The notes below the pieces were generated by a model, which saw only the letters and a program-made list of their open reading frames with translations, was not told where the DNA came from and did no database searches. Position numbers and translations under genes: made by a program. A stretch of DNA of 64,000 bases. Source: Terebella lapidaria (lineage: Eukaryota > Annelida > Polychaeta > Terebellida > Terebellidae). Location: the NCBI GenBank assembly GCA_949152475.1, contig OX424564.1, positions 5,580,001 through 5,644,000 on the forward strand, read 5' to 3'. Of the stretch, positions 2,301 to 63,410 are shown one piece after another (positions within the stretch are counted from its first letter, which is position 1; every line of letters starts with the position of its first letter).

Positions 2301-2449
2301 TCGAGTGTCCAGGTCAGCTAGGCTCCGTCAGTATTATAACTACAGACGAACCTGTCGGCGCGCGACTAAGTGGTTTCTGGCCTCGTTGGCAGGAACTAGG
2401 AGCCAGTCCCTGGATAGTCTCGACACTGCGTCGGGGGTTCGGGCTCAAG

Positions 2450-4140: not shown

Positions 4141-4194
4141 CGTCACGATCTGCTCAAGCAGCCCCGGTCCGACGTCTTTCATCAAGCTCCAGCC

Positions 4195-8616: not shown

Positions 8617-11332
8617 GGCTTGCTAATTTGGTTGTGTTCAGTTGGCGGAGTTTCTGGCTTGCTAATTTGGTTGTGTTCAGTTGGCGGAGTTTCTGGCTTG
8701 CTAATTTGGTTGTGTTCAGTTGGCGGAGTTTCTGGCTTGCTAATTTGGTGCTGTTCAGTTGGCGGAGTTTCTGGCTTGCTAATTTGGTGCTGTTCAGTTG
8801 GCGGAGTTTCTGGCTTGCTAATTTGGTTGTGTTCAGTTGGCGGAGTTTCTGGCTTGCTAATTTGGTGCTGTTCAGTTGGCGGAGTTTCTGGCTTGCTAAT
8901 TTGGTTGTGTTCAGTTGGCGGAGTTTCTGGCTTGCTAATTTGGTTGTGTTCAGTTGGCGGAGTTTCTGGCTTGCTAATTTGGTTGTGTTCAGTTGGCGGA
9001 GTTTCTGGCTTGCTAATTTGGTGCTGTTCAGTTGGCGGAGTTTCTGGCTTGCTAATTTGGTGCTGTTTCTGGCTTGCTAATTTGGTTGTGTTCAGTTGGC
9101 GGAGTTTCTGGCTTGCTAATTTGGTGCTGTTCAGTTGGCGGAGTTTCTGGCTTGCTAATTTGGTTGTGTTCAGTTGGCGGAGTTTCTGGCTTGCTAATTT
9201 GGTTGTGTTCAGTTGGCGGAGTTTCTGGCTTGCTAATTTGGTTGTGTTCAGTTGGCGGAGTTTCTGGCTTGCTAATTTGGTGCTGTTCAGTTGGCGGAGT
9301 TTCTGGCTTGATAATTTGGTGCTGTTCAGTTGGCGGAGTTTCTGGCTTGCTAATTTGGTTGTGTTCAGTTGGCGGAGTTTCTGGCTTGCTAATTTGGTTG
9401 TGTTCAGTTGGCGGAGTTTCTGCTTGCTAATTTGGTTGTGTTCAGTTGGCGGAGTTTCTGGCTTGCTAATTTGGTTGTGTTCAGTTGGCGGAGTTTCTGG
9501 CTTGCTAATTTGGTTGTGTTCAGTTGGCGGAGTTTCTGGCTTGCTAATTTGGTGCTGTTCAGTTGGCGGAGTTTCTGGCTTGCTAATTTGGTTGTGTTCA
9601 GTTGGCGGAGTTTCTGGCTCGCTAATTTGGTTGTGTTCAGTTGGCGGAGTTTCTGGCTTGCTAATTTGGTGGTGGTCAGTTGGCGGAGTTTCTGGCTTGC
9701 TAATTTGGTTGTGTTCAGTTGGCGGAGTTTCTGGCTCGCTAATTTGGTTGTGTTCAGTTGGCGGAGTTTCTGGCTTGCTAATTTGGTGCTGTTCAGTTGG
9801 CGGAGTTTCTGGCTTGCTAATTTGGTGCTGTTCAGTTGGCGGAGTTTCTGGCTTGCTAATTTGGTGGTGGTCAGTTGGCGGAGTTTCTGGCTCGCTAATT
9901 TGGTGCTGTTCAGTTGGCGGAGTTTCTGGCTTGCTAATTTGGTTGTGTTCAGTTGGCGGAGTTTCTGGCTTGCTAATTTGGTTGTGTTCAGTTGGCGGAG
10001 TTTCTGGCTCGCTAATTTGGTTGTGTTCAGTTGGCGGAGTTTCTGGCTTGCTAATTTGGTTGTGTTCAGTTGGCGGAGTTTCTGGCTTGCTAATTTGGTG
10101 CTGTTCAGTTGGCGGAGTTTCTGGCTCGCTAATTTGGTTGTGTTCAGTTGGCGGAGTTTCTGGCTCGCTAATTTGGTGGTGGTCAGTTGGCGGAGTTTCT
10201 GGCTTGCTAATTTGGTTGTGTTCAGTTGGCGGAGTTTCTGGCTTCCTAATTTGGTTGTGTTCAGTTGGCGGAGTTTCTGGCTCGCTAATTTGGTGCTGTT
10301 CAGTTGGCGGAGTTTCTGGCTTGCTAATTTGGTGCTGTTCAGTTGGCGGAGTTTCTGGCTTGCTAATTTGGTTGTGTTCAGTTGGCGGAGTTTCTGGCTT
10401 GCTAATTTGGTGCTGTTCAGTTGGCGGAGTTTCTGGCTTGCTAATTTGGTTGTGTTCAGTTGGCGGAGTTTCTGGCTTGCTAATTTGGTTGTGTTCAGTT
10501 GGCGGAGTTTCTGGCTTGCTAATTTGGTTGTGTTCAGTTGGCGGAGTTTCTGGCTTGCTAATTTGGTGGTGGTCAGTTGGCGGAGTTTCTGGCTTGCTAA
10601 TTTGGTGGTGTTCAGTTGGCGGAGTTTCTGGCTTGCTAATTTGGTTGTGTTCAGTTGGCGGAGTTTCTGGCTTGCTAATTTGGTTGTGTTCAGTTGGCGG
10701 AGTTTCTGGCTTGCTAATTTGGTGGTGGTCAGTTGGCGGAGTTTCTGGCTTGCTAATTTGGTGGTGTTCAGTTGGCGGAGTTTCTGGCTTGCTAATTTGC
10801 TTGTGTTCAGTTGGCGGAGTTTCTGGCTTGCTAATTTGGTGCTGTTCAGTTGGCGGAGTTTCTGGCTTGCTAATTTGGTTGTGTTCAGTTGGCGGAGTTT
10901 CTGGCTTGCTAATTTGGTTGTGTTCAGTTGGCGGAGTTTCTGGCTTGCTAATTTGGTTGTGTTCAGTTGGCGGAGTTTCTGGCTTGCTAATTTGGTGGTG
11001 TTCAGTTGGCGGAGTTTCTGGCTTGCTAATTTGGTTGTGTTCAGTTGGCGGAGATTCTGGCTTGCTAATTTGGTTGTGTTCAGTTGGCGGAGTTTCTGGC
11101 TTGCTAATTTGGTGCTGTTCAGTTGGCGGAGTTTCTGGCTTGCTAATTTGGTGCTGTTCAGTTGGCGGAGTTTCTGGCTTGCTAATTTGGTTGTGTTCAG
11201 TTGGCGGAGTTTCTGGCTTGCTAATTTGGTTGTGTTCAGTTGGCGGAGTTTCTGGCTTGCTAATTTGGTTGTGTTCAGTTGGCGGAGTTTCTGGCTTGCT
11301 AATTTGGTGGTGGTCAGTTAGCGGAGTTTCTC
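8617..11332. repeat. 39-bp minisatellite, about 70 tandem copies
   Basis: Unit starts GGCTTGCTAATTTGGTTGTG and continues TTCAGTTGGCGGAGTTTCT. Because 39 is divisible by 3 and the unit has few stops, long frames are open on both strands. On the minus strand it reads as 13-residue repeats, roughly ISKPETPPTEHNQ, from a Met at 11390 to a stop at 8613. Recurrent variants change only a few positions: TTGTGTTC, TGCTGTTC, TGGTGGTC and TGGTGTTC in one segment, and CTTGC or CTCGC in another. In the minus reading they give EHN, EQH, DHH or EHH, and K or E. Two length changes, near 9067 (a short unit) and 9421 (one base missing), shift and restore the minus frame. Coding use is possible but unproven. 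Confidence 0.95.
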
Positions 11333-14060: not shown

Positions 14061-14164
14061 TACCGTAAAACTTCTAATAGACGCCCGGGCGTCTATTGAT
14101 TTCAGTTACACGGTAAACCCGGCGTCTATTAGAACCCAGCGTTTATTAGAACCCGGCGCTTATT

Positions 14165-15880
14165 AAGGCATTTCAGCAGAAATGCCTTTATGGTTTTGTC
14201 AAAATTTTTGTTTTTCTTTTTTTTTTTTTTTTTTTTTTCTTTTTTTTTTTTTCTTTTTTTTTTTTTTTTCTTTTTTTTTCACTTTTTGGTTTCCGCACGA
14301 TAACTTCAGTTTGCATCGGCGTATCTTTGCCAAATTTTCACCGGTGGTCAGAAATGTTGTGTGGAAGAAGCCTATTGTTTTTGAGCCGGCTCCGGGGTCC
14401 GTGAGGTCCATGAGGATGAAATTCATGTTTTTGTTTTCCGCACGATAACTCAAAAAGTATTATGGCAATGACCGTAAAACTTTGCACGGAGGTTCATATG
14501 TCACCAGGGAAGAAGCCTATTGATTTTGAGGCCGATCCGTCAAACGACCTTTGACCTAGGGCTCGAAATAATTTTTGGTGAGTCATCCTTGAGGCTCTCA
14601 GGCATATCTCGGAAACGGTGCGTCGTAGAGCGAAACAGACGTTATTTTCGGACTCATCATCCTAGACAAACATGTCTAAGGGGTATTATGGATGACCTTT
14701 GACCTTGACCTTAAATTTTTTCGCTGAGTCGGCATTTTTCGTCTTCATCGATATCTCTGAAACGATGCGTCGTAGAGCGAATGGACGTTATTTTCGGTCT
14801 CGTCATCCTAGACAAACATGTCTAAGGGGTATTATGGATGACCTTTGACCTTGACCTTAAATTTTTTTGCTGAGTCGGCATTTTTCGTTTTCATCGATAT
14901 CTCTGAAACGGTGCGTCGTAGAGCGAACGGACTTTATTTTCGGACTCGTCGCCCTAAACAAACATGTCTTAAGGGTATTAGGGTATTAGGGATGACCTTT
15001 GACCTTGACCTTAAATTTTTTCGCTGAGTCGGCATTTTTCGTTTTCATCGATATCTCGGAAGCGGTGCGTCGTAGAGCGAAACGAACATTATTTTCGGAC
15101 TCGTCGCCCTAGACAAACATGTCTAAGAGGTATTATGGATGACTTTTGACCTTGACCTAAAATTTTTTCGCTGAGTCGGCATTTTTCGTTTTCGTCGATA
15201 TCTCGGAAACGGTGCGTCGTAGAGCGAAACGGACGTTATTTTCGGACTCGTCGCCCTAGACAAACATGTCTTAAGGGTATTATGGATGACCTTTGACCTT
15301 GACCTTAAATTTTTTCCCTGAGTCGGCATTTTTCGTTTTCGTCGATGTCTCGGAAATGGTACGTCGTACAGCGAAACGGATGTTATTTTTGGACTCGTCG
15401 CCCCAGACAAACATGTATATAGGGTATTATGGATGACCTTTGACCTTGACCTTCAATTTTTTTGCTGAGTCGGCATTTTTCGTTTTCGTCGATATCTCGG
15501 AAACGGTGCGTCGTAGAGCGAAACGGACGTTATTTTCAGACTCGTCGCCCTAGACAAACATTTCTTAGGGGTATTATGGATGACCTTTGACCTTGACTTT
15601 AAATTTTTTCGCTGAGTCGGCATTTTTCGTTTTCGTCGATATCTCGGAAATGGTGTGTCGTAGAGCGAAACGGATGTTATTTTCGGACTCGTCGCCCTAG
15701 ACAAACATGTACATAGGGTATGATGAATGACCTTTGACCTTGACCTTAAATTTTTTCGCTGAGTCGGCATTTTTCGTTTCCGTCGATATCTCGGAAACGG
15801 TCTCATTGGGAACTTATCATGTCAGCATTTTGTTTTTTTCATGCTTCACCCTGAAATGCCTCCAAGGCCTTTAGGCCTTG
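14165..15880 (+). mobile_element. family C: Helentron-like non-autonomous element with central tandem repeats
   Basis: The 5' end is a perfect hairpin, AAGGCATTTC-AGCA-GAAATGCCTT (14165-14188). The 3' side has CTGAAATGCCT (about 15851-15861), the inverted match of the 5' terminus, followed at once by a terminal hairpin AAGGCCT-TT-AGGCCTT (15864-15879). Between them lie a poly-T tract (14213-14280) and about nine 146-bp tandem units. A 5' inverted repeat, a central tandem array, a subterminal 3' inverted repeat and a 3' stem-loop are the plan described for DINE-1/HINE elements and bivalve pearl elements, which are non-autonomous Helentrons. No Rep-helicase is present. Class assignment is inference. 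Confidence 0.65.
14540..15800 (+). repeat. 146-bp tandem array with TGACCTTTGACCTTGACC motif
   Basis: About nine units, recognised by GATGACCTTTGACCTTGACC recurring near 14691, 14837, 14991, 15145, 15291, 15434, 15582 and 15727, with a more diverged first unit. Each unit continues CGCTGAGTCGGCATTTTTCG and GTCGATATCTCGGAAACGG. TGACCTTTGACCT is the complement of AGGTCAAAGGTCA, a perfect DR1 nuclear-receptor site. Spacing is about 146 bp, with one unit longer because AGGGTATT is repeated. Confidence 0.9.
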
Positions 15881-16277
15881 ACGTCTAGTTGATTTCAGTC
15901 GCTGTCTGGGCCCGGTGTTTATTGGAATCGGCGAGGCCTGTGTTACGATATGAGGAAGCGGACGACAGTTTAGATTTTAAAAGCTGGAATTTCCCGACTG
16001 GGATGCATTGACGTTGATCTAGTATCTGTTCGTTCTACAGCAGGTGCAGCGATGTATTTTATTTTTGTTTCTATGGCATCAATAACTAAGAAATATTTCT
16101 TCCCCACCAGGCCCAGGGGCCTATACTAGTATCTATACGTTGCTATGTTACACAATGTACGTAGACCCGGCGTCTATTAGAACCCGGCGTCTATTAATTT
16201 CAGTATACCTGAACCCCCGGCGTCTATTAGAACCCGGTGTTATTAGGAACCCGGCGTATATTAGTAGTTTTACGGTA

Positions 16278-35109: not shown

Positions 35110-35157
35110 AGTTACCGGACCTTTGGTCGAATTACCTATTGTCATGGCATCCGTCCA
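35110..35157 (+). repeat. family A, 5' end fragment interrupted by a second hairpin element
   Basis: A degenerate family A 5' hairpin (AGTTACCGGACC...GAATTACC) and the start of the CATGGCATCCGTCC box, after which family B sequence begins. Confidence 0.6.
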
Positions 35158-35464
35158 CATTTTTAGCTCCGCTATGCCGAATAGAATGGCAGCGTAGCTT
35201 TAGCGATGCTGTGTTGTCCGGTGTTTGTCTGTCTGTCCGTCGTGGTTTTTCTGGTGATTTTCGCATTATTTTCAAACTGGCGGCCAATTTCGACGAAAAA
35301 CGCATGAGTTTTGGACTTTGTAATATTCAAACGTCTTATTCTCTGAGACTGCTTGTTGGAATCTTTGACCTTTTGAATCTTTTCGCATGTTGATAATGCG
35401 GATAGTCCTCACAAACTGATCTTTTTAGAATTCTGAGTTTCTCCTTCATTTTTTACTAGAAAAT
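35158..35464 (+). repeat. family B: hairpin-headed repeat
   Basis: Starts TTTAGCTCCGCTATGCC and, after a short loop, GGCAGCGTAGCT, an imperfect hairpin. It is followed by GTGTTGTCCGGTGTTTGTC and TGTCTGTCCGTCG, which mirrors the CGTCCGTCCG box behind the family A hairpin. It is flanked on both sides by family A sequence, so it appears inserted there. The 3' boundary is approximate. Confidence 0.45.
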
Positions 35465-35469
35465 TATTA

Positions 35470-36420
35470 GGTTACCGGACCTTTGGTCCGATAACCTATT
35501 GGCATGGCGTTGCGTCCGTCGTCCGTCCGTCCGGCGTTAACATTTTTATCTTTAAAGTTGACCATCAAATCTTTCTGAAATTTTGCACAAAAATGCCTAA
35601 AAATATTTTGAGAAGGAGGTATTTTTTTGTTTTTTGATTTTCGCATTTTTTTCAAAATGGCCGTTTTTGTCGAAAAACACTCAATTTTGGACTTTGATGG
35701 CCATTTTCTCAAAAACTGTCTGATCAGTTTTGAGTTTTTGGTTTCAAAAGATTCCCCTCATATACCTCTGTGATATGTATAAGTTTGGTTGCCCTAAATT
35801 CGCCGGTTTCCGTGTGGCGGCCATTTTGAATTTTTGGCGGGTAGAAAATTTTCGGCACTTTTTTCCTTCATAATGGGAGCTGTCCGGACTGTACTCATAG
35901 AACGCTTGAAGAAAGAGCTTAGAAATTGGCACTTTCAAATGGGAAGTCATATATGGCGACTTGTGTGGTGACCTTGAATTTGACCTTGGATGACCTTGAA
36001 AGGTCAAAACTTGCCCAGATTTGCCCAGAAAAAAAACTTGCCCAGAAAAATGCCCAGATTTGCCTCTATAGATGAAATGCTTGCAGATAGAGCTCATGTT
36101 TGCATTATGAACATATAGGAAGACATATACTAGTATGGCACAACTAATGATGACCTGGAACTTGACGTCAGATGACCTTGAGTGCCAAATGTCTGACTTG
36201 GAATGTGTAAATTGACCTGAACGGCCTAAACGATTCCATCCAACTTATAGAATATCAAATGTAATGGTAACATCGAAGTTCATACGGATGACCTTGATTG
36301 GTAAATCCCAAGGTCATATGTTTACACTGCGAACCTTGATTGATAAAAGGTCTGTTACCTGCCAATGCTGCCATGGCCAAACCAAAATTATCCGGTAACC
36401 TATCTTAGCCTTTGGGCAAA
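35470..36420 (+). mobile_element. family A element, complete short copy
   Basis: The 5' hairpin GGTTACCGGACC-TTT-GGTCCGATAACC (35470-35496) is followed by TTGGCATGGCGTTGCGTCCG and a CGTCCGTCCGTCC box. The 3' end has CCGGTAACC, the inverted match of the 5' terminus, then TTAGCCTTTGGGCAAA, a weak hairpin, and T-rich sequence. The interior holds GTTGCCCT...GCCGG and CAAAATGGC modules repeated in other copies. It has no long tandem array and no protein. Confidence 0.7.
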
Positions 36421-36426
36421 TTTTTA

Positions 36427-37681
36427 GGTTACCGGACCTATGGTCCGATAACCATTTGGCATGGCGTTGCGTCCGGCGTCCGGCGTCCGGCGTCGGCGTC
36501 GGCGTTCACATTTTTATCTTTTTTGTTTACAGACCAATCTTTCCGAAATTTTGCACAAAAATGCACAAAAATAATTCAAGAAGGAGGTATTTTTTAGTTT
36601 TTTGATTTTCACAATATTTTCAAAATGGCGGCCGTTTTCGTCGAAAATCGGCCAATTTTGGACTTTGGCGGCCATTTTCTCAAAATCTGTTCAGTAACTT
36701 TTTTTCTTTTTTTGCACAAGGATGCCTTATTATGTCCTTCATAATGTGTATAAATTTCGTTGCCCTTGATTCGATGGTCTGCGTGTGGCGGCCATTTTGA
36801 ATTTGTCGTTTTCGTCGAAAATCGGTCAATTTTGGGCTTTGGCGGCCATTTTCTCAAAATCTGTTCAGTAACTTTTTTTTTATTGATGCATAACACCCTC
36901 ATATGTACCCCTGTGACATGTATAAATTTCGTTGCCCTTGAATCGCTCGAAGTGGGCCATTTTGGGCCCAAACTCGGCCCAAATGGGACTTTCCCATGTT
37001 AAATTCTCCTATGCTTTATAATGGGACACATTAAAGCTTAATATCTCACTTAATATTGAGATTAGAGACTAGGAATGAATTGTGGACATATAGGAAATGA
37101 TATATGCTAAATATTCTCGTGACCTTGAATTTGACCTTTGACCTCATTTTCAAGGTCACAGGACAAAATGACTAATATCTCGCTTATTATCGACTTTACA
37201 GCTTAGGAATCAATTGTGAACATATAGGAAATGATATATGCTGAATATTCTAGTGACCATGAATTTGACCTTTGACCTCATTTTCAAGGTCAACAGGACA
37301 AAATGGCTAATATCTTGCTTATTATCGACTTTACAGCATAGGAATCAATTGTGAACATATAGGAAATGATATATTCTGAATATTTTAATGATATTGAATT
37401 TGACATTTGACCTAAATTTCAAGGTCAGTCATTTTATTTTCAAAGTCAGATTACAAAATGGCTTATATCTCGCTTATTATCAAATTTACAGCTTAGGGGT
37501 CCATAGTGAACATATAGGAAATGATGTATGCTGAATAGTTTGGTGATCTAGAATTTAACCTTTGATCCCATTTTCACGGTTAGAGATATGGCGATTTCAG
37601 TGGTCACCTTGAATTTGACCTTCAAATTTCTCGGCTTAACTCTGTATATTTTTCCGGTAACCTTTCTAGCCCATTGGGCTA
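36427..37681 (+). mobile_element. family A element with a short tandem array
   Basis: 5' hairpin at 36427-36453, GTCCGGCGTCCGGCGTC box, then CAAAATGGCGGCC modules in two copies (about 36622 and 36783). About four 135-bp tandem units follow (37090-37580), marked by AATATCTCGCTTATTATCGA and TTTGACCTTTGACCTCA. The 3' end is CCGGTAACC (37654-37662), then the hairpin TAGCCC-ATT-GGGCTA (37667-37681) and a T-run. It lies 6 bp after the previous copy, so the two are in tandem. Confidence 0.75.
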
Positions 37682-40600
37682 ATTTTTTTAACTTTTTAAT
37701 CAACAACCACCATTTTTGTATTCAATCCTCTAAAACGACACTCAGACAAATCTTGAATTTGAAACTCTTATATTTGGCTTACAATGACATTGAAACCTAA
37801 AATCGGCCATTAAGTTGAAGAATTCTTGGACTTTGTCAATTACTATTGCCCGGCAACTTATTTTAGCCCTCAGGCTAATTTTTTTTTTCAAAATCTGTTC
37901 AGAGAATTTTTTTTCTAAAATCATGCATAATATTTACTTTGTGTGGTGACCTTGAATTTGATCTTCGATGACATTTTTCCAAATTTGCACTTTCTATTTT
38001 CTCAAAAATTATATGATCAGTTGTTAGATTTGTGAATTGGGATACTTGATACTTGATTGGATTAATTGGAAAATATAGCGCCCTAAAATTCCCCATAAGG
38101 TCCGATACGTAAGCCATAAAGGCCCAAAATGGCATGATGTGCATAAGTTGGCCACTGGGACCAAAACAGTTGTACATTTACCTCAGATTTGTAATCGAAT
38201 CATATAGGGAGTCTCATTTGGAGCACCTCCTGGCGACTTTGAACTTAACCTACAATGGCATTGAGTGGGAGATATCAAGGTCACATTTGGCATGAACTAT
38301 GTAAACCGGCTTCTGCACACAAGATACCTAGAGATAAATCTTATATTGGGGCAAATAGGGAGTCATATATGGTGGATCTGTTGATGACCTTGAACTTGAC
38401 CTTCAGTATTACAGTTCCATAATATGTCTGCCGGTAAGCTACAACACTCTTGGTGATATGTTTATCTTTGAATTTTACAGTCTAATCTTTCTAAAAATTC
38501 GCATAAAAAATGCCTAAAATATTTCAAGGGGAAAGTATTTATTAGTTTTTTGTTTTAGTAATTTTTTCAAAATAGCGCTCATTTTCGACGAAAAATGCTC
38601 AATTTTGGTTGCCTTTGTTATGTGTGTAAGTTTTGTTGCCCTTGAATCGCCGGTCTGCGTGTGGTGGCCATTTTGATTTTTTGACGGGTCGGCGACAAAA
38701 AAAATCGTCCCAGATCTAGTCACCGTTGGTTTTGAGCCATATTCAGCAAAAGGAAAAAAAATGGGACCATTGAAAAATGTTTGGACTTGGAAGTTTCATA
38801 GTGAGAGCTGTATGGAGTACTCTAGAACACATCCAAAGGGGGAATCCTATATTGCGATTTCATAGGTGACCTTGAATTTGACCTTCAATGACCTTGAAAG
38901 GTCAAAAAGGCATTTGTTGTTGATAAACGATGATTTTTGGACTTTGGCAGCAATTTTCTCAAAATTTATTTAAAAACTTTTTCTCTAATTCATTAATAAG
39001 GCTTCCCATAATATACCTCTGTGATGTGTATACGTTTCATTGTACTTGATCTCGGTCGGTATGTATTTTTATTTTCGTACGAGTCGGCAATGAAGTCATT
39101 TATGGCGATTTGTGTGATGACGTTGGATTTGATCTTCAATAAACTTGAAAGGACAAAACGGCTATTTTTCGTCGACAAAAGCCCTTGTTTAGACATTTGT
39201 GGCCAGTCAAAACATGCTAATTGAGGTCCTTCACAGTATGTATGAAGAAGGAGTAACTTGAATCGATACGAGGGCTCAAATGGCCGAAACATATCTGATA
39301 TGCACAAATTGCCGTATCATGCGAAAATGCTTGTACACAGGGCTTAGGCTTGTATCATAGTCATACATGGTGTATCTTCTGGTGACCTTGGTATTTACCT
39401 CAGACGACCTTGGAGGCTAAATCTCAAAGTCACGGTGACCTGAAATGTGTAAATTAGCCTCTACAGACAAAATGCTTGTAAATAGAGCTTATGTTTGTAT
39501 TATGAACATATAGGAAGTCATATATAACACCGCTTTTGTAAGCTTGAAGTTGAGCCCACGACTTTGAAGGTTAAATCTCAATATCAGCCTGACCCGAACT
39601 GTGTATAGAAATGCTATGGTCAAAATGCTTGTAGATGGAGCTTTTGGTGACATTGAATTTGATCTCAGATGATCAAGTGTACTAAATCTCTGAAGTGAAA
39701 TGTGTTAGTTTGTCTCTGGGGCTCAAACGCTTGCGCCTAGATCCTAGGATTGTGCTTAGAGAAGTCATATATATGGCACTTCTTTTCGTGATCTGGAACT
39801 TAACCTCAGACCACATTGAAAGGTCACGCCTAGCTTGACATGTGCAAATTGGCCTCTACAGACAAATACTTGTAGATAGAACTTATGTTTTGTGTTATAT
39901 ACATAAAGCAGCACATCCAAATTGACCTAAAGGCGACATTGAAGTTCATTAAGATGACCTTGATTGGTGAATCTCAAAGTCATATGTCACCTGCAATGCT
40001 TAACACCAAAATTTTCCGGTAAAATATCTCAGCCCTTAGGCTAATATTTTTAGTTGTAAATTTACGATTGTTCTCAAAATGGTTTTCGTAAAAAAAACCC
40101 GGCCATTTTGGACTTTGGCGGCCATATAACCTTGGGACGAGTATAAGTTTCGTTGCCCGTGATTTGCCGGTCTGTGCATGGCGGCCAAAAAATGGGATTT
40201 GGTTCGTAATCAAGTCACCATTTGTTTTGAGTCATATCCAGCAGAGATTATCATACACGTTTCCATTTATAATGGGAGCTGTATTGAGTAAACTTTTTTT
40301 AGGCTTTCGCGATCATGTTCTCGAAACCTGTTCAGTACCCTGTTCATGTGTCGTGTTTTGCAGCCCTTGCATCGCTGGTACGCATGGTGGACATTTCGAT
40401 TTTTCAACAGATTGGCAGATATGTGTCGTGTTTTGCAGCCCTTGCATCGCTGGTACGCATGGTGGACATTTTTGATCTGATTTTTCAACAGATTGGCAAA
40501 CAAAATCAAACCACCATAGAAATGTTTTGAGTTATTTCCAGCGAAAAAAAAATCGTCATTGGAACATTCATTTTATTTTCCTGAGAATGGATCAGTCAAG

Positions 40601-41460
40601 TCCTCTGTCATTTCCACAAGTTCAAGTCTTTGCCTTTCCTTGACCTTGACCAGAATCATAGGTTTTTGGGGCGATAAAATTGGTGTTATTGCCACAAGTT
40701 GTAGTATACCGGATCCGGTATTTTTTTTCGGCCCAAATCGCTTTATTATCCATTTTGGGCCATTTCTAGACAAAAAAAATTTTTCCCCCCTTGAAAAAAA
40801 TTTTGGACTGAAAATGTTCGGTACTTTTTTCCTTCATAATGGGAGCTGCCAGAACTGTACTCCTAGAACGCCTGAAGATAAAGCTTAGAAATTGGCACTT
40901 TCAAATGGGAAGTCATATACGGCAACTTGTGTGGTGACCTTGAATTTGACCTTGGATGACCTTGAAAGGTCAAAACAGCCATTTTTAGGTCGAAAAATGC
41001 CCAAATTTGCATTTTTGCAGATTTTCTGTCTTTTCTCGAAAACTGTCTGATCAGTTTTGAGATTAAAGAATCCCCTTATGTACCTTTATGATGTGTATAA
41101 GTTTTGTTGCCCTTGAATCACCATGTGGCGGCCATTTTGAATTTTTGACGGGTCGGCGGAAAAATCGCATCACTAATTTACTATCCATTTTGGGTCATTT
41201 CTAGGCAAAATAAAAAGTTCACCCTTTGAAAAAATGTTGGACTGAAATGTGTAAATTTTGTCTAAAGACAAAATACTTGTAAATAGACTTTGTCTTTGTA
41301 TTTTTAACATATACAAGGTTATATGCTGCACACTTGATGGGGACATTGAAGTTCACGAAGATGACCTCGAATGGTTGATCTGAATGTCATATCTCACCTG
41401 TCGTGCTTCAACCAAAATTGTCGGGTAACCTATCTTAACCCTTGGGCAATTTTTTTGTCG
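37682..41460 (+). repeat. cluster of family A fragments
   Basis: Repeated partial copies in plus orientation. 3' ends with GGCTAA-type hairpins lie near 37850-37885 and 40012-40050, and one with CGGGTAACCTATCTTAACCC lies near 41423-41452. Interior modules (GGCCATTTTGAATTTTTG, GTGACCTTGAATTTGACCTT, GACAAAATGCTTGTA) recur throughout. A near-perfect 66-bp direct repeat, starting GTGTCGTGTTTTGCAGCCCT, occurs at about 40347 and 40422. No gene is recognised. Confidence 0.65.
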
Positions 41461-41763
41461 ACAACTTGTAACCATATTGTTCATTCATTCGAATCACCAA
41501 GCTTCTCCGTAATAGTTTCATGCAGATTATTAAAACGAGAAAATTGGGGATTACAGAAACTGCCCTTGCAGAATGCAGATTGAGTACATGAGCCGAAGAA
41601 ATACAAATACCCTCTCAACCTATAACTCGTGTCCAGGGTAGAATCAAAATATTCCATGAAGTCTGGAGACACAACAGCTGTACGGTCATAGCATCGATCA
41701 TCATGATTTAGGGCTATTACCTAACTCAAGCCAAGACGTTTACACCTTTAGCTTCGAAAGTGT
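41461..41763. other. intergenic downstream of the GT14 gene
   Basis: No feature recognised between the family A cluster and the GT14 polyadenylation signal. Confidence 0.4.
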
Positions 41764-41769
41764 TTTATT
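41764..41769 (-). terminator. polyadenylation signal (GT14 gene, minus strand)
   Basis: TTTATT on the plus strand is AATAAA on the minus strand, about 35 bases beyond the stop codon of the GT14-like gene. Confidence 0.65.
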
Positions 41770-41803
41770 GTTCATAATACTATAAAATTACATAAACATT
41801 TTA

Positions 41804-44296
41804 TCAATATTCATGTCCAAACATTTCCAGACATTTTCTAAAAATGTGTCGGTATTTTTGCTTGTCCAAGCTCACGAATAGTGCAGGATATTTCAATAAG
41901 TCCCCAGTTGCAGGGAAGAGACATTGTCCATCCGTATCCTCGCAGACGTCTGGTGGCTCATAGATTGGCCTCCATCCTTTGATGGCGGTATGATTACTGT
42001 CCTCGGTCGGATCCGAGTTTCGGAATCCTAAAAAGTAAAATAAAATTATTTGTTTATAATGAAATTCGACATGCGATATTCTGGTATTTTTTTTTGGGGG
42101 GGGGGGGGGGGGGGGAAGAATGGGGTGGTTTTCATCACCTGCAGCCATGTAGCCAACACTTCATATCGACGAAAAAGCCTTCCACACATCAAATTTACGA
42201 TTCTGTTATGTATGATAGAACCAAAGTCTGTTATGCGCCCACAATACTGGCCAACATTTCTTTACAATTGTGGCTAAATTACTATGAAAATGGCATTTGT
42301 AATAGACCATGAATCTTGTTGTGTTATGCCCCTATTCCACGCCGACCAAGAATCTCACGAATCGCTACGAATTGATAATTTTTGGGATTCGTAGTTGAAT
42401 CGTAATCAGTTCGTGAAGTTCTTAACTGATTCGTATTTATTCGTAGTTCGTTCTTGCAATTCTTGAGCGATCGGGAATTCGTGGCCAAAGTTTTGAGCTG
42501 TTCAAAATTTTGGCCACGAACTCCCGATTCCAAAATATCGTAGTTAATTCGTAACCAATTCGTAGTTCATTCTTGGGCTTCGTAGGTCATTCGTAGGTAT
42601 TCTTAAATAATTCGTGAATTGTGAATTCGTGGCTAGACCACGAATTGGATACGAATACTCACGATTCCCACGCAAACACATCTTAAATTTTTCCTAAAGT
42701 TCTTGCAGTATTCGTGATCGATTCTTTTAAATCGGAGTTGATTCTTGGCAGTATTTTCCGTTACTCCAGCAGAATCCCATGAATAGTCGTAATGCTATCG
42801 TACCCGTGTCGTAACAGAATCGTAGAGCGTCATGATTTGGACAAGAAATTTGCGAAATTCCACGATTCCTCGCGAATCCTAAAACTTATCAATTCGGGGC
42901 GATACGTGGGATTCGTGGTCGGTGTGGAATAGGAGCATTACCTGTACCCGGGTCCAGGAGGTATCGGATTGTCTGTCGGGACAGCAGAGAGAAAGACAAT
43001 TGAGCTGGAGGAGTCCGTATCTGCAGTGACGTCACTAACTCTGGGGTCAGCTTATCGATTCCCATGATCGTTCTACAACGGTATCAAACGACTTATGTTA
43101 GTCCAAGTACAAGTGCTGGCAAAACTCACCTGTAAAAACATACAATGTGACGCGAATAAAAACATACATTGCTCTCATGCTACGAGTGAAAATACATTAT
43201 CAAATGAATTCATTTTGTATGGGTTTTTCGTGTGCAAATATTAGGCTCACCCATCAGCCTTCTCCAGAAGATTTGTTCGATTCTGTGCCCGAATGAATCT
43301 GATCAGTTGTAAGTTTGATTTGATAGGGAGTAATTCCCTATCTAAACCTATTGTCAGTTGATATTTCCAAGAATTTCCTTTGGATAAATTGATCTCCGAG
43401 TACTTCATGTTTCCCGCTGCTTGATCAAACATCGCCATTTCAACATTTTCTTGAAAACAACGGCCCATAGTCTCCAAGGCGACGCGCATGGACGCCGGGG
43501 CTGACTGCTCAACCAACACACAGTAGGTATTCTGGGGCCGGTAGACAGCACGGAAAAACCTCTCGAAGCGACCAGTATCGTTCCCACTGTGTATAACGTA
43601 GGCAAGTGGGAAGTCTGTTTCCTCCTGCGATTGGGTCTCTGTCACGTAAGGTCGTTCATACTCGGCCGAAACACAATCCTTGTAGATGCAGATGTAATCC
43701 AGGTCTGATTTTTGTGTGTTCTTACTTAGAAAATCCTCGACTGTCGCCAGTGCCGCATGCGTCATGTTGTTTTCGAGAAAAGACGGACACATCCCCAATT
43801 GATCACGGTATGGCTCAGCGAATCTGGAACTTCTCTCTCCTGTCCCAAAGATACAAATTGCACCAGTTATCGTGTGTTATCTCTATATGGGAAACTCAGA
43901 ATCGCCTGAATAGGAGAAAAATGACGTGAAACATCATAAAATCTGATACAATATAACATAATAACTTATTGATAATTCCATACCGTTGATCCTGGTGACG
44001 AGGTTGAGGTCGAGCCTCTCCTCGGAGTTGGCGTAAATCAAAGACACACCAAAGATCGCGAGAACCAAGTAGATGGCCATGATACAGACGGCCTTTCTGC
44101 GGGAGTCCGGGGCTCCAGGCTCAATCCCGGGGCTCGAGACCGATCCAGACTCACTCGAGGGCCAGTTCCTGGAGCCAGACTCCACACAGAAGCTGTTATT
44201 GGGGCCAGGGGACGTGACACAACGGCGGGTGTCGTAAGCGTGCCACAGGCGCTGTCCGAGGGACTTCAACATCGTGGGCTTCGCGTTGTGGCTCAT
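41804..44296 (-). CDS. GT14 family (core-2 beta-1,6-GlcNAc-transferase-like) Golgi glycosyltransferase
   Basis: Four coding exons on the minus strand: 44296-43984, 43839-43251, 43072-42942 and 42027-41804. All introns are GT-AG and phases match; the sum is 1257 nt, 418 residues plus stop, close to the roughly 430 of GCNT enzymes. It is a type II membrane protein: a 68-residue N-terminal tail, a membrane anchor at about 69-89 (CIMAIYLVLAIFGVSLIYA), then the lumenal domain. GT14 signatures are FPLAYVIHSGNDTGRFERFF, RAVYRPQNTYCVLVE, WKYQLTIGLDRELLPIKSN, and near the C-terminus GQCLFPATGDLLKYPALFVS. GCNT enzymes add beta-1,6-GlcNAc to O-glycan cores or poly-LacNAc. The copy is divergent: CGTDFPIKSN of vertebrate enzymes is LDRELLPIKSN here, and the region of the usual catalytic Glu is shortened, with only PTED as a candidate. 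Exact acceptor specificity is unknown. A 611-bp MITE abuts the third splice donor. Confidence 0.82.
42327..42937. mobile_element. 611-bp MITE with TTA target duplication in a GT14 intron
   Basis: Inverted ends TGCCCCTATTCCACGCCGAC (left) and TGCTCCTATTCCACACCGAC (complement of right), with TTA at 42324-42326 and 42938-42940. A three-base TWA target fits PIF/Harbinger-type transposition. The interior is a patchwork of diverged GAATTCGTAG/AATCGTAG repeats in both orientations. It lies in the last intron of the GT14 gene and its right TTA forms part of the splice donor. Confidence 0.78.
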
Positions 44297-46209
44297 ACTT
44301 ACACGTATTTCGAGTTGTATGTAGTGTTTATGGAAATTGTATCAAATTGCCACCGAAATGTAGTTTGAGGTGTTGATATCTTTCATATTTGGATTGACAG
44401 TTGTTGTTTGATCAGATATATCGGATTCGACAGTAGACTTTGGTGTTTTGGCATCTTCTCTCAATTTCATGAGGTACTTGTAAGCCCTGTATATAGAGCA
44501 TTGAAGACGCATGTGATTAGGTTATCAACGGAATTATCTACGGATTCCCTGGGCATGTCCAATTGTTTCTTGCCTCCAGATTACTTCCTCCATTTGAATC
44601 TGCCTATGAATTTTCTCCAGACGAACACTAATCCGATACAAATCACGAAAAACATTGTCAAAGCGTGTCCATGTGATCAGCTAGCGCTTGTTAAATGAAC
44701 ATTTTGTTTCGGTATTATCAGGTATGATACTGAGCTTCTATATAAATCTGCTCTGTACAGTGGAGATTATGTACGCATAAGCAAGTATAAAGGCATCAAG
44801 TACATATTAAATTATAAAGATGGATTTCGATAGCGTTTTGAATGTATGCCACAGAGCAGGGGGAGGAGGAGGCGTAGTTATACTGTGATACAGTCACTGT
44901 GCCTGTATTCTGTGTAGGAAGCCTATTGTTTCGTTCTGAATGGACGCCTCGTTCCGAACAGCTGTTTCTGGGGGCATACATATGTACGTAGGCATTTAAC
45001 TGAACGATACTGTCTGTTTTATTCGTACATTACGACTTGGGAGTGAAGCGAATCAAATCAAGCTCATGTGGATACAAAGAGAAAAATTAAGATGAACAAG
45101 TAACGCAAATGAATGATCTGAATAGTCAGCCATGAAAAGAGCGAATGAATTACATAGGAAAGCACACATACATGAGCCTCTACCATGTTATGTTATTACA
45201 TGATATACAAATTATCGCTGTTTGTATATGTGCACTGTACATTTTTACGTCTTTCAGCAGTACTACTTGTACCGGGTTTGTTTCAACACGTGGCGTCACT
45301 TTCTAACATATGCCAAGGGCCAAATTGCGAACAAATGCATTATCAAACTGGTAGACGCGGTAACAAAAGCTTTGCCATGCAGTACCGTGTGTTTTCATAT
45401 CTGATTTATGGGTCACATATTGCTTTGTGCCAGAGGGATCATGTGCATGATAAAAACATTTCGAAAATTCTAGAAACAGATGATAGAAAATGATAGAAAC
45501 AGAAATAATTGAACGATGTATATTGATGTTGTAAGGTTTGGGCCAATCATTGAGATCATTTAAATATATATTTACATGAAATATCCGTATAAATAAATAC
45601 ACGAAAAAAATTCACCCAGTTTCAATTTGAATATGGTAAAATGTTAACGAGTATATGAACTTTCACAGTGACTTTGGGAGAATGTTGAAAGGTTTGATTT
45701 GATTTGGTTGGAGATGAATACATGCAAATTGTAATTTCAGTCAGACTCAGATGATAAGTATTAAGAAAATAGTGTATTTCAGAATGAATATAGGAAGACG
45801 AATATATTTCCTCTGCGAAATTGGCTTAAGTGTATCACTACAAGTGTTTTCCTTTGATTTAAAAAGGTTTCGTTCTCAGGAAAGTATAGTTTCACATTCA
45901 TACAATTTCCCCCTTTTGTAATAGTCGTCCTAATTAATAATAATTTAATTAAAAAACGATAACACTTTTAGAACTCGATCGGCAAAAGCACACAGTACGA
46001 GACACTGTAAGTCAAAAACATTCCAGGTTGTTACTATTCCAAGTTTTCCCGATTGTCACTTGATTTTCCGAATGTTTATTTATTGCTTCACCTAAAATCA
46101 TCAAAATGTTCTGTCTCCATTTTTCCCCTTCAAATTGTGCTCTTAGTCGCTGAAAAAACACTTGCTCGCCGACATTGCTCGACCTTCTGAAAAAAGGATA
46201 ACTGCACAT
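44297..46209. other. upstream of the GT14 gene, no further gene recognised
   Basis: Contains the presumed promoter and 5' UTR of the minus-strand GT14 gene, but no clear TATA box or initiator could be chosen. The rest (44.7-46.2 kb) shows no exon, RNA gene or element end. Confidence 0.4.
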
Positions 46210-46747
46210 TTATATAAAAAAAATAATTCAAGAGGGAGATATCATTCTTTGTCGATTTCGCTTTCAGAAGAAAGGCAGATATTTCCGATGAAAAAACGGT
46301 TTATTTTCGATTTCGACGGTCATTTTCTCAGCATTTTTTCCGAAACCTTTTTTTTAAAAATTGCACAAGTATGATACTATAGATCTCATGTATGGTGTAT
46401 AGAAATTGAATCCCTTGAATCATAGGAAAGTTGGAAATATATTCAGTAATTTATCTCCATTTCCACAGATGTGCATGACAGTTTGGACTGTTCATCTTGT
46501 GTACAGACAGGATGTTTTGAATTTGTGGAACGGCTCGAAGTTTAGTTCCAAATGGCCGAAGATGGCATGTAATGCACAAATTGGCCCTTGGAAACAAAAC
46601 ACTTGCTGATACAACTTGAATGTAAGTCATATGAGCATATGGAAAATGACAATCTTTTGATGACTTTGTACTTGCCCTTGTGACCTTGCGCAATATCAAG
46701 TTCACACCCAAACTGAGACGTGTAAATTCACACCTGCATACAAAAAA
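46210..46747 (+). repeat. family A fragment, plus orientation
   Basis: Matches family A interior: AATAATTCAAGAGGGAGATAT near 46222, CATTTTCTCAGCATTTTTTC and TTGCACAAGTATGAT. It ends where the inverted full copy begins at 46748, so the two copies face each other. Confidence 0.6.
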
Positions 46748-48927
46748 TTAGCCCAAGGGCTAAGGAAGGTTACCGGACAATAATGTTAGATATTAGCCAT
46801 TTTGTCCGTGACTTTGAAAGAAAGGTCAATGGTCAATTCAAGACCACAAGAATATTCAGCACATATCATTTCTAGTATGTCCACAATTGATTCTGTAAAT
46901 CAATTGATTCTGTAAAGCTGTAAAGTAGATAATTAGTGATATATTAGCCATTATGTACTCTGACTGTGACAATTAGGTCAAAGGTCAAGTTCAAGGTCAT
47001 GAGAATATTCAGCATATATCATTCCTCTATGTTCGCAATTGATTCCTAAGCTGTAAAGTCGATTATAAGTGAGATATTATCCATTTTGTGCTCTAACCTA
47101 GAAAATAAGGTCAAAGGTCAAGTTCAAAATCATAAGAATATCCAGCATATATCATTTCCTACTGTTCACTATGGATTCCTAAGCTGTAAAGTCGACAATA
47201 AGTGAGATAATAAGAGCATTTTGTGCTCTGACGTTGAAAATAAGGTCAAAGGTTAAGTTCAAGGTTTCCTATATATCCACGAGCGATTCCTAGGCTGTAC
47301 AATCGTTAAAAAGTGAAATATTAGCCATTTTTGGCTTTGACCTTGAATATGAGGTCAAAGGTCAAATTCAGGTTCATGACAATATTCAGTATATATCATT
47401 TGCTATATGTGCACAATTGATTCCTAAGCTGTAAAGTCGATAATGAGCGAAGATATTCGATATTTTGTGCTGTGACCTTGAAAATAAGGTCGAAGGTTAA
47501 ATTCAAGGTCATGAAAATATTCAGCATATATCTTTTCTTATATGTGCACAGCTGCTTTCTAAGCTGTAAGGTCGATAATAAACGAGATATTAGCCATTTC
47601 GTGCTTTGATCTTGAAAATGAGATCCAAGGTCAAATTCAAGGTCATGACAATATTCAGCATATATCATTTCCTATATGTGCACAATTGATTCCTAAGCTG
47701 TAAAGTTGATAATAAGCGAGATATTACCCATTTTGTGCTCTGACCTTGATAATGAGGTCAAAGGTCAAATTCAAGGTCACGAGAATATTCAGGATATATC
47801 ATTTCCTATATGTGCACAGTTGATTGCTAAGCTGTTAGGTCGATACTAAGCGAGATATTAGACATTTTGTACTTTGACCTTGAAAATGATGTCCAAGGTC
47901 GAATTCAAGGTTATGAATAACAACATATATCATTTCCTATGTGTGCACAATGGGTTTCTAAGCTGTAGAGTCGATAATAAGCGAGATATTACCCATTTTG
48001 TGGTCTGACCTTGAAAATACGGTCATATGTCAAATTCAAGGTCATGAGAATAATCAGATATATCATTTCCTATACATGCTCAATTGATTGCAAAGCTGTA
48101 AGGTCGAAAATGAACGTAATATTAGCCATTTTGTCCTGTGATGGTGAAAATTAGGTCAAAGGTCAAATTCAAGGTCACGATAATATTCAGCATATATCGT
48201 TCACTATATGTTGACAATTGATTCCTAAGCTGTAAATTCGATAATAAGCGAGATATTAGCCATTTTGTCCTGTGACATTGAAAATGAGGTCAAATTCAAG
48301 GTCATGACAACATTCAGAATATATCTTTCTTATATGTCCATAATTGATTCCTAAGCTGTAATGTTGATAATAAGCGAAATATAAGCCATTTTGTGCTCTG
48401 ACCTTGAAACTGAGGTCAGAGGTCAAATTCAAGGTCAGGAGAAGGTCAAGGTCAGGAGGTTCAGCATATCATATTCTATATGTCCACAATTGATTCCTAG
48501 TCTCTAATCTCAATATTAAGTGAGCTAATAGGCAATATTAGGACCCATTATAAAACATAGGAGAATTTAACATGGGAAAGTCCCATTTGGGCCGAGTTTG
48601 GGCCAAATATGGCCCACTTCGAGCGATTCAAGGAAAACGGAATTCATACAAATCACAGGGGTAAATATAAGGAGTGATATGCATCAATAAGAAAAAAAGT
48701 TACTGAACACATTTTGAGAAAGCGGCCATCAAAGTCCAAAATTGGCCATTTTGAAATAAATTGCGAAAATCAAAAAACTAAAAATACCTCCTTCTAGAAA
48801 TATTTGTAGGCATTTTTGTGCAAATTTTCAGAAAATTTCGGCCGTAAACAAAAAGAACAAATGTGAACGGACGGACGCCGGACGCAACGCCATGCCAATA
48901 GGTTATCGGACCAAAGGTTCGGTAACC
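46748..48927 (-). mobile_element. family A element with a 13-unit tandem array, minus orientation
   Basis: Read on the minus strand: 5' hairpin (48927-48901), GTCCGGCGTCCGTCC box, GGCCATTTTG modules, then the long tandem array, the subterminal inverted repeat (complement GGTTACCGG at 46768-46776) and the 3' hairpin TTAGCCC-AA-GGGCTAA (46748-46763). It is 2180 bp long, the longest family A copy here, and matches 36427-37681 end to end except for extra tandem units. It has no protein, so it is non-autonomous. Confidence 0.75.
46800..48480 (-). repeat. about 134-bp tandem array with AGGTCA motifs, about 13 units
   Basis: On the plus strand, forms of GAGGTCAAAGGTCAAATTCA followed by AGGTCA occur near 46822, 46974, 47107, 47242, 47351, 47486, 47620, 47754, 47888, 48019, 48152, 48286 and 48412. 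Most spacing is 131-135 bp and one interval is about 109. Each unit also has TCATTTCCTATATGTGCACA and GCTGTAAAGTCGATAATAAG. Several units contain the perfect direct repeat AGGTCAAAGGTCA. Confidence 0.88.
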
Positions 48928-49790
48928 TAAAAACGACTGCAGACAGGTACTAAGAATGTATTATGAGTCACATCTGACACATCGTTTGGTGACCTTGAAG
49001 TTGACCTCAGATGTTCTCGACTGGTGATCCAAAGATTACATCCCAACTGCAATGTGTAAATTGAACACTACATACGAAACAGCCGCAGATATAGTAAGAC
49101 TGTATTATGAGCATATAGAAAGTCACATCGTTTGGTGACCTTGAAGTTGACCTCAGATGATCTTGAGTGGTGATCCAAAGATTACACCCACATGTGTAAA
49201 TTGAACTCCACTGTACATACGACATGACCCAGATAAATCATGAGAATGTATTATGAGCATATATAGGAAGTTGACCTCAATGATCTTCAGGGGGTAAATC
49301 TCAAGATGGAGTTCAACTTGAAATATGTGAAAAGGCCTTTGCGGATAGTTCTTAACGTACTCCGCTACAAAGAGTGAGGTAACGAAGAGTCAAAATTTAA
49401 AAGTCATTTCTTGAATATTATCTCTTCAAATTGACAAATTATATCGAGTAGCTGATCAGCATCCTAAAACTGAAAAGAAAATAGGGGATCACCGTGCTCG
49501 TTTCTTCGACATATTCGATCAAAATCACACACATTTACCTAAAATGGCATAAATTATGGCATTCTTTCATATTCACATCTTGCATCGTGTTTTCCATGCG
49601 AACGGATACGGTGACCCTCTATTTTCTTTTCAGTTTTAGGATGCTGAACAGTTACTCGATGAAATATATCATTTTGAAGCTCTAGATCATGTTGATCCAG
49701 TTATTTCATTTTAAAAACTCATTGACCCCCTCCCCTCACTGTCTGGAGCGGACTACCTTAAGACTGTATTATGAGATTATCAACACACGA
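48928..49790 (+). repeat. family A fragments, plus orientation
   Basis: Two tandem copies of a module with GTATTATGAGTCACAT, TTTGGTGACCTTGAAGTTGA and CCTCAGATG near 48957 and 49090, then a third partial copy, which is split by a TTAA MITE at 49356-49757. Confidence 0.6.
49356..49757. mobile_element. TTAA-flanked MITE inserted in a family A fragment
   Basis: TTAA at 49352-49355 and 49758-49761. Inverted ends are CGTACTCCGCTACAAAGAGTGAG-type on the left and GGTAGTCCGCTCCAGACAGTGAG-type (complement) on the right. An internal inverted repeat with AGCATCCTAAAACTGAAAAG pairs about 49458-49485 with about 49616-49645. Removing it leaves GGATAGTTCTTAAGACTGTA, which matches the uninterrupted family A module at about 49087-49110. 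The TTAA target suggests a piggyBac-type transposase. Confidence 0.78.
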
Positions 49791-59990: not shown

Positions 59991-61239
59991 ACAAGGTGTG
60001 GACTACGGGACCGATCATGCCTTGACTTTATTGCTCAAGAACTTCGAGGTAGATCGTCCCGTGGCGCGAAACCCCACTCCTGCGTGGGACTTGTCGTTGG
60101 TCTTGAACCGTCTGGCATCAGCCCCATTCGAGCCCTTGGCTTCGGCGCCCCTCAAGTTAGTCACTTGGAAAACGGTTTTTCTCCTTGCCCTAGCCTCTGG
60201 CAGGCATCGAGGTGAGATCCATGCTTTGGATGCGTCTAAGATTAGCTGGAAGGAGAACTATGCTCAGGTCAGACTGGGCGTTCTCCCGTCTTTTCTCTCG
60301 AAAACCCAGTTCTCTACGGCCCCTCCATTGGCGATTGTGATCCCTGCTCTCGATGCCTCTCTTGGCACGGACTTGGAGAGTGACGCGAAGCTCTGTCCCG
60401 TACGTGCGTTGCGCTTTTACCTTGACAAGACCAAGGGTTTTCGACAAGGCAAAAAGGGATTGTGATCCCTGCTCTCGATGCCTCTCTTGGCACGGACTTG
60501 GTCTCTACGGCCCCTCCATTGGCGATTGTGATCCCTGCTCTCGATGCCTCTCTTGGCACGGACTTGGAGAGTGACGCGAAGCTCTGTCCCGTACGTGCGT
60601 TGCGCTTTTACCTTGACAAGACCAAGGGTTTTCGACAAGGCAAAAAGGGATTGTGATCCCTGCTCTCGATGCCTCTCTTGGCACGGACTTGGAGAGTGAC
60701 GCGAAGCTCTGTCCCGTACGTGCGTTGCGCTTTTACCTTGACAAGACCAAGGGTTTTCGACAAGGCAAAAAGGGATTGTGATCCCTGCTCTCGATGCCTC
60801 TCTTGGCACGGACTTGGAGAGTGACGCGAAGCTCTGTCCCGTACGTGCGTTGCGCTTTTACCTTGACAAGACCAAGGGTTTTCGACAAGGCAAAAAGCTT
60901 CTTTTCGTCTCTTATCTGAAAAGCTTCAAGAACGATATTCGCTCCCCGACTATCTCTTCTTGGATTAAGAAATGCATTCGACTCTGTTACGATCTCGGCG
61001 ATCAGCCGACTGATTGTTCTTTTCAGGTACGGGCGCATGACGTACGGGCCATGGCTGCGTCATTGGCTTATATTGGTAATACACCACTATCTCAGGTTAT
61101 GAGTGCATGTTCTTGGTCTTGCCATAACACGTTTACTTCTCATTATCTCAGAGACATAGCCTGGACGTCTGAGGACGGGTTGCACCTGGGTTCGATCGTC
61201 GCCAGCCAGCACGTCATCCTCGGTCGCACATCAAGCTAA
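59990..61239 (+). CDS. DIRS-c tyrosine recombinase region
   Basis: Catalytic-domain motifs are the Arg of ASGRHRGEIHALD, the H-x-x-R of RAHDVRAMAAS and the Tyr of TSHYLRDIAWT. The region is longer than in DIRS-a because a stretch of roughly 120-190 bp is repeated in tandem about four times. Coordinates bracket the region. Confidence 0.84.
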
Positions 61240-62298: not shown

Positions 62299-62410
62299 GG
62301 CTACCGGACCTTTGGTCCGATAACCTATTGGCATCGCGTTGCGTCCGTCGTCCATCCATCCGTCGTCCATCGCCCGTAAACAATTTTATCTTTAAATTTT
62401 TGTAACGAAT
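62299..62410 (+). repeat. family A 5' end fragment
   Basis: Hairpin GGCTACCGGACC-TTT-GGTCCGATAACC (62299-62325), then ATTGGCATCGCGTTGCGTCC, a CGTCCATCCATCCGTCG box and AACAATTTTATCTTTAAA, as in the copy at 35470. Sequence is lost after about 62400. It lies inside the palindromic transposon. Confidence 0.7.
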
Positions 62411-62593: not shown

Positions 62594-63330
62594 GTTGATC
62601 CTTGGGCATCCTGAGCCCATTTCCTCGAAAAATAATTCTACTTCCGGTTTGGTGTCATTTGACACCACAGGTGTAATCTGATACCAAACCACACCTAGTG
62701 TATTGCCAATTAGCCCTACGGGTTCGAAAATAATGTCCTTTTTGCTCTACGATCAATATTTACTGAGATATGGAGGTTTTTATGGAAAAGTGGGTGATAA
62801 TAGGGGAAAGTGTAAATTTTTGGCCTTCAAACACACCAAAACGGCCTAATAACTGATCCTTGGGCATCCTGAGCCCATTTCCTTGAAAAATATTTCTACT
62901 TCCGGTTTGGTGTAATTTGACATCACAGGTGTAATTTGATACCAAACCACGCCTAGTATATTGCCAATTAGCCCTATGGGTTCGAAAATAATGTCCTTTT
63001 TGCTCTACGATCAATCTTTACTGAGATATGAAGGTTTTTATGGAAAAGTGAGTGATAATAGGGGAAAGTGTAAATTTTTGGCCTTCAAACACACCAAAAC
63101 GGCCTAATAACTGATCCTTGGGCATCCTGAGCCCATTTCCTTGAAAAATATTTCTACTTCCGGTTTGGTGTAATTTGACATCACAGGTGTAATTTGATAC
63201 CAAACCACGCCTAGTATATTGCCAATTAGCCCTATGGGTTCGAAAATCATGTCCTTTTTGCTCTACGATCAATATTTACTGAGATATGAAGGTTTTTATG
63301 GAAAAATGATGATAATAGGGTAAAGTATTA
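62594..63330. repeat. 258-bp tandem repeat, nearly three copies
   Basis: GATCCTTGGGCATCCTGAGC recurs near 62597, 62855 and 63113, exactly 258 bp apart, with CTTCCGGTTTGGTGTAATTT, CCACGCCTAGTATATTGCCA and GGAAAGTGTAAATTTTTGGC in each unit. The second and third copies are nearly identical, while the first has more changes. Minus-strand frames of about 84 codons repeat with it and are a consequence of the repeat. Confidence 0.9.
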
Positions 63331-63410
63331 ATTGTGTAATAGGTTTTCAGAACAAATGTCGGTAACCTAAAAACATTCCTCATGTTGAAGCTAATGTTGT
63401 GTCAGATTTT

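Follow-up and report, generated by a model that had tools for sequence, protein, structure and literature searches.

Family A repeats of Terebella lapidaria as probable HINEs, with an autonomous Helentron carrying matching ends in the same genome

Family A repeats are almost certainly HINEs, that is, non-autonomous Helentrons copied by rolling-circle transposition and mobilised by an autonomous, roughly 19-kb Helentron of the host genome. Helentrons are rolling-circle transposons with a Rep/helicase that carries an endonuclease tail. To judge from the sequences, full-length Rep-encoding elements most likely moved the family A passengers. The repeats were recognized in a 64-kb window, meaning the whole stretch of DNA that was analysed. 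An initial annotation of this window had treated family A as mobile, with coding relatives unlike DDE elements; the relatives encode Rep and an endonuclease, and the sequences suggest that the family has moved.

Family A in the window

The initial annotation described a hairpin/tandem/hairpin family around a GT14 gene, and this description holds. The window contains three complete copies (A1, A2, and A3), one decayed 5' end, and three relic 3' ends, and an exon between copies encodes a Core-2/I-branching (GT14-type) domain (PF02485, E 1.6e-6). The features are listed by position.

35110..35150, plus strand: decayed family A 5' end, AGTTACCGGACC TTT GGTCGAATTACC
35469..36426, plus strand: HINE copy A1 (5' hairpin, GTCC-type microsatellite, right module)
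35470..35496, plus strand: A1 5' hairpin, subTIR and complementary inverted repeat
36392..36425, plus strand: A1 3' subTIR CCGGTAACC, imperfect palindrome, T-run
36426..37686, plus strand: HINE copy A2
36427..36453, plus strand: A2 5' hairpin
36469..36505, plus strand: A2 left-module microsatellite (GCGTCCG)
37024..37582, plus strand: A2 tandem units, about 4 of ~135 bp (TRF count 2.9)
37654..37689, plus strand: A2 3' subTIR CCGGTAACC, palindrome TAGCCC-ATT-GGGCTA, T-run
37850..37888, plus strand: relic family A 3' end
40016..40052, plus strand: relic family A 3' end
41421..41456, plus strand: relic family A 3' end
46743..48928, minus strand: HINE copy A3
46742..46776, minus strand: A3 3' subTIR (46768-46776), palindrome, T-run, read on the minus strand
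46901..48432, minus strand: A3 tandem array, 11.7 units of ~134 bp (TRF)
48901..48927, minus strand: A3 5' hairpin, one mismatch to the pattern

At least four 5' hairpins had been claimed between 35110 and 49351; three are full (35470-35496, 36427-36453, and 48901-48927), and the fourth, at 35110, is decayed. The several matching 3' ends amount to six in this range (three complete and three relic), and both orientations are present, with A1 and A2 on the plus strand and A3 on the minus strand. The difference in tandem unit number, given as about 4 versus 13, is real at its lower value (about 4; TRF 2.9), but the larger array has 11.7 units by TRF. The 3' end of A1 joins A2 head-to-tail via TTTTTA. 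With up to two mismatches, GGTTACCGGACC occurs 18 times in the window, compared to a mean of 2.85 and a maximum of 9 in 100 shuffles. The window was also said to hold no coding partner, and in tblastn with two query pieces (Rep and endonuclease) no homology to either was found in it (best E 0.19); like HINEs, the window copies lack this coding capacity.

Other repeats were seen in the window. A further family A 5' hairpin (one mismatch) lies at 62299-62325, outside 35110-49351, and about 270 bases past it a 258-bp unit is repeated 2.9 times in an array (62596-63333). A MITE-like element of about 600 bp, read by eye at 42329-42941 near the GT14-type exon, has ends that are inverted over about 26 bases (ATGCCCCTATTCCACGCCGACCA...). 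A uniform array of 39-bp units occupies 8616-11331 (about 70 units over two TRF rows, 11.4 + 58.2 copies), and tandemly duplicated stretches of 191 and 125 bp, matching at 100%, lie at 60311-60897.

Family A ends across the genome

HINEs are recognized by subterminal palindromic inverted repeats, a 3' palindrome, and insertion in T-runs with no target duplication, and their published plan also has a left microsatellite and a central array (available text of PMC4067079 and PMC7492417). In family A, a 5' subTIR near the terminus is paired with a complementary inverted repeat, and the 3' subTIR TCCGGTAACC is followed by an AGCCC/GGGCT palindrome. The genome-wide count and border alignment that the initial annotation had proposed gave 11,501 exact 5' hairpins (5,889 + 5,612) and 7,404 exact 3' ends (3,826 + 3,578) in the 762-Mb host genome, with sharp borders; reversed-pattern controls for the two ends had 0 matches genome-wide. 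TTTTTA followed by GGTTACCGGACC-N3-GGTCCGATAACC is present in the window copies and in 8/8 genome 5' loci read, and 3 to 8 Ts (median 5) follow GGGCTAAT in 30/30 genome 3' loci read, these loci being the first ones listed on one contig and no random sample.

The 5' border falls at the T-run before GGTTACC. With a query that included 199 bases of flank, 30 of the 39 long non-self rows start exactly at base 200 and 36 start within 195-202, the other three starting at 180, 214, and 262 (72 rows, the rest being short pieces; 40 of 7,707 candidates scored). At the 3' border, 29 of 32 non-self rows stop at base 884 and three at 885, 887, and 890, and none of the 32 runs to the query end at 901 (40 of 662 candidates scored). 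In each of the 23 3' ends read from autonomous copies, CCGGTAACCTTT[CG]TAGCCCTTGGGCTA[AT]TTTT precedes differing flanks.

In 31 other places, the left module (about 900 bp) is 96-99% identical to that of the autonomous element, and by coordinate comparison no listed Rep of this clade lies within 25 kb of these long rows. They are taken for HINEs; at one of them (C1:1686936), a listed family A 3' end follows 1.5 kb on. The identity above 95% that links HINEs to a partner is reached by these 31 rows, but not by the window copies, which are 77-94% identical to the autonomous 5' module by segment. Because of this divergence, the immediate parent of the window copies may be an older subfamily.

The autonomous Helentron partner

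A search for a coding element with family A ends, also proposed in the initial annotation, found nine colinear Rep/endonuclease copies elsewhere in the genome (on C12, C14, C17 (two), C2 (two), C16, C5, and C4). Each of the nine, 19.1-22.1 kb long, runs from a family A left module through an internal block, Rep, and endonuclease to a family A 3' end. Seven are 19.1-19.2 kb, one C17 copy is 20.7 kb, and the C16 copy is 22.1 kb. The internal block begins within the family A tandem unit of about 133 bp (identity printed as 100%), and 2.5 kb above this start an upstream walk reached the family A hairpin, microsatellite, and left module. Across the nine copies, Rep is 98-100% and endonuclease 99% identical. 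Landmark offsets are nearly equal in seven, where the 5' end and the start of Rep are 11.57-11.63 kb apart; the spacing differs in one C17 copy, and in the C16 copy an insertion splits Rep into two places separated by 2.9 kb. Eight of the nine have an intact 5' hairpin, which the C17 copy at 27211650-27230739 lacks. Copies on C4, C5, and C2 (13 Mb) have a 2,517-aa open frame, with equal length at Rep and endonuclease.

The predicted protein has the parts of a Helentron. The Rep (HUH) domain is represented by Helitron_like_N (PF14214, E 9.1e-30) and by GSPHIH, read by eye, which we take to be the HUH motif of Rep. An AP-type endonuclease is fused C-terminally (Exo_endo_phos, PF03372, E 8.6e-6 and 9.9e-6, above the cut-off in L070 and L081). 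PIF1 helicase was found in five sister copies (C9, C2:57 Mb, C14:35 Mb, C15:23 Mb, and C16:2.3 Mb), in frames with the same printed length as the Rep frame, which places the helicase in the same protein by way of the sister copies; for the nine full copies themselves, no helicase was among the 150 scored places.

Rep domains are plentiful in the host genome (150 of 234 candidates scored). In one Rep group the endonuclease is terminal and a family A 3' end lies 2.5 to 3.6 kb beyond. Among 107 Rep rows, some of them pieces of one copy, 70 are 65-100% identical to the Rep of the family A partner and 37 only 34-46% identical to it. This split indicates, at the level of sequence identity, that the partner's Rep belongs to a clade of its own, many members of which are broken.

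Insertion sites and clustering

At least four Ts plus A end the left flank in all eight copies with an intact hairpin. The C5 copy sits inside another HINE, and its joined flanks restore an uninterrupted HINE, T-run length aside, with no duplication beyond Ts at this empty site. Target duplications, which the initial annotation had named as evidence against its reading, were likewise not seen beyond Ts in the flanks read. Insertion is thus T-rich and without target duplication, as in HINEs, duplication having been tested at one clean site. By eye, the C4 copy, in a HINE similar to the host of the C5 copy, has about 15-20 host bases missing between two T-runs, and the left and right flanks of the C14 copy do not match each other; therefore, some sites are unclean.

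Two autonomous copies on C17 (C17:27211650 and C17:27275595) have a common right flank and differing left flanks, which suggests local duplication or rearrangement. The left flanks of the C4 and C5 copies are nearly identical. Because of these shared flanks, not all nine copies need be independent insertions.

Family A sequence forms the 3' flank in 9 of 23 autonomous copies. In four downstream segments of the 30 HINE 3' loci, 39 of 41 family A matches, which are not independent, point in the same direction, and another 5' hairpin lies within 80 bases past the 3' end in 1 of the 30. Family A is not enriched beside HINE 3' ends (10/30 adjacent versus 10-11/30 at 500-1300 bases); this indicates regional clustering and counts against special self-targeting. 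The T-run asymmetry is modest, with 38 T-runs versus 20 A-runs in four reference pieces, compared with 163 versus 131 over the window as a whole. The swarm near the GT14-type gene is consistent with copies that cluster regionally and tend to point the same way.

Proposed mechanism and alternative explanations

By analogy with the known family, the partner probably transposes by a rolling circle. Rep would nick at the 5' end of the element, the helicase would then unwind it, copying would stop once the 3' palindrome is reached, and its product, a strand or circle, would join a nicked T-run. The Helentron Rep/helicase/endonuclease would act in trans on HINEs with matching ends. Because HINEs carry T-runs, these could receive later copies, mostly in the same direction, and so build up a nested swarm. 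We regard the chances as evenly balanced that a complete, recently moving autonomous Helentron itself has the satellite-like array found in its HINEs, that this Helentron is the direct ancestor of both the passengers and their tandem repeats, and that the T-runs it spread serve as landing sites for later copies, giving same-direction swarms and head-to-tail joints.

The initial annotation noted that family C shares the plan but differs in sequence, and proposed a shared mobilising enzyme acting on structure more than sequence. The first observation stands for what is presumably family C, an element at about 14,150-15,890 of the window with the plan of family A in other letters. It contains a 147-bp tandem array, with GGCATTTCAGCAGAAATGCC on its 5' side and GAAATGCC followed by AAGGCC/GGCCTT on its 3' side. 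Presumed family C has 3,379 exact 3' ends genome-wide (reversed control 0), and this abundance under a common plan speaks for one enzyme that mobilises both families through hairpin structure. The common plan does fit a shared mechanism, being the one published for HINEs and Helentrons, but a single enzyme reading structure over sequence is unsupported. For family A it is needless, because the family's own partner shares the letters of both ends and the tandem units; recognition by matching sequence would suffice. Any of the other Rep groups (the 37 of 107 rows at 34-46% identity) could serve family C, and we consider the single enzyme unlikely. Many of these groups have long open frames, and the one at C8:33.5 Mb also carries an endonuclease tail; in 3 kb on its 3' side, short of the border, there are no family A or C end motifs. 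Separately, a presumed family C copy lies nested within a Helentron of family A (L083, about 2099-4504).

It is more improbable still that the Rep-encoding copies are unrelated Helentrons merely beside or inside family A copies. Family A copies do cluster, as the 3' flanks of autonomous copies illustrate, and the C9 copy, which was read first, has no 5' hairpin since it is truncated. Against this, nine copies keep one order from left module to 3' end, with the near-equal offsets noted above in seven, and the internal block is unbroken from the tandem unit into the interior. Two readings of the C9 locus were discarded. At C9:36.04-36.06 Mb, an element without a family A 5' end was considered; other copies continue upstream, and the absence is a truncation. 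Tandem units 3' of the C9 copy were considered to belong to the element; what follows the 3' end differs among 23 copies, and in nine it is family A.

The least credible alternative is that family A consists of MITEs moved by a DDE transposase: short inverted repeats do lie near both ends (GGTTACCGGA / TCCGGTAACC), and the bivalve element Pearl was originally called a MITE (available text of PMC7492417), but the 3' inverted repeat of family A is subterminal, the insertions read are flanked by T-runs only (with no further duplication at the C5 empty site), terminal inverted repeats with target duplication were not found in the flanks read, and the coding copies with family A ends encode Rep and endonuclease.

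Comparison with known systems

Family A, as a set of HINEs with a Helentron, belongs to a known kind of element, and the complete partner is the added result. Canonical Helitrons also have Rep/helicase, a 3' hairpin, and no target duplication. They differ in their ends, which are TC...CTAG between A and T (available text of PMC7992393), whereas those of family A are TTTTA-GGTTACC... / ...GGGCTAATTTT in T-runs; neither a 5'-TC, a CTAG-type 3' end, nor an A/T site was found at the family A ends read.

The closest description is Cg_HINE of Crassostrea gigas, which in the available text of PMC7492417 has, like family A, a 5' subTIR with a complementary inverted repeat, a GTCC-type microsatellite, a central satellite-like array, a 3' subTIR, a palindrome, and T-run insertion without duplication; this is a likeness in plan. 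According to the same text, its authors could link their HINEs to none of ten autonomous elements from Repbase, whereas family A has a partner. The oyster study PMC7992393, in its available text, has no autonomous elements in its Helitron-like set. Satellite-carrying HINEs are widespread among oyster genomes, and the available text of the two oyster studies (PMC7492417; PMC7992393) indicates that both missed the mobiliser. We found no report of an autonomous partner of satellite-carrying oyster HINEs in the literature outside subscription papers and Repbase, as far as the available text extends. Among the matches listed for the motif letters in literature text, none is on transposons by title.

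Partners were previously known for DINE-1 and some other HINEs (available text of PMC4067079). DINE-1/HINE and the autonomous Helentrons in that text resemble the present system in having Rep/helicase with a C-terminal endonuclease, palindromic subTIRs, a 3' palindrome, insertion between Ts, and partners more than 95% identical. In contrast to that system as described there, the autonomous element here is about 19 kb long and has tandem units in its own left part. One element thus unites both ends, the tandem units, and the enzyme, in near-identical copies in one genome, and because of this the origin and spread of such arrays become directly testable.
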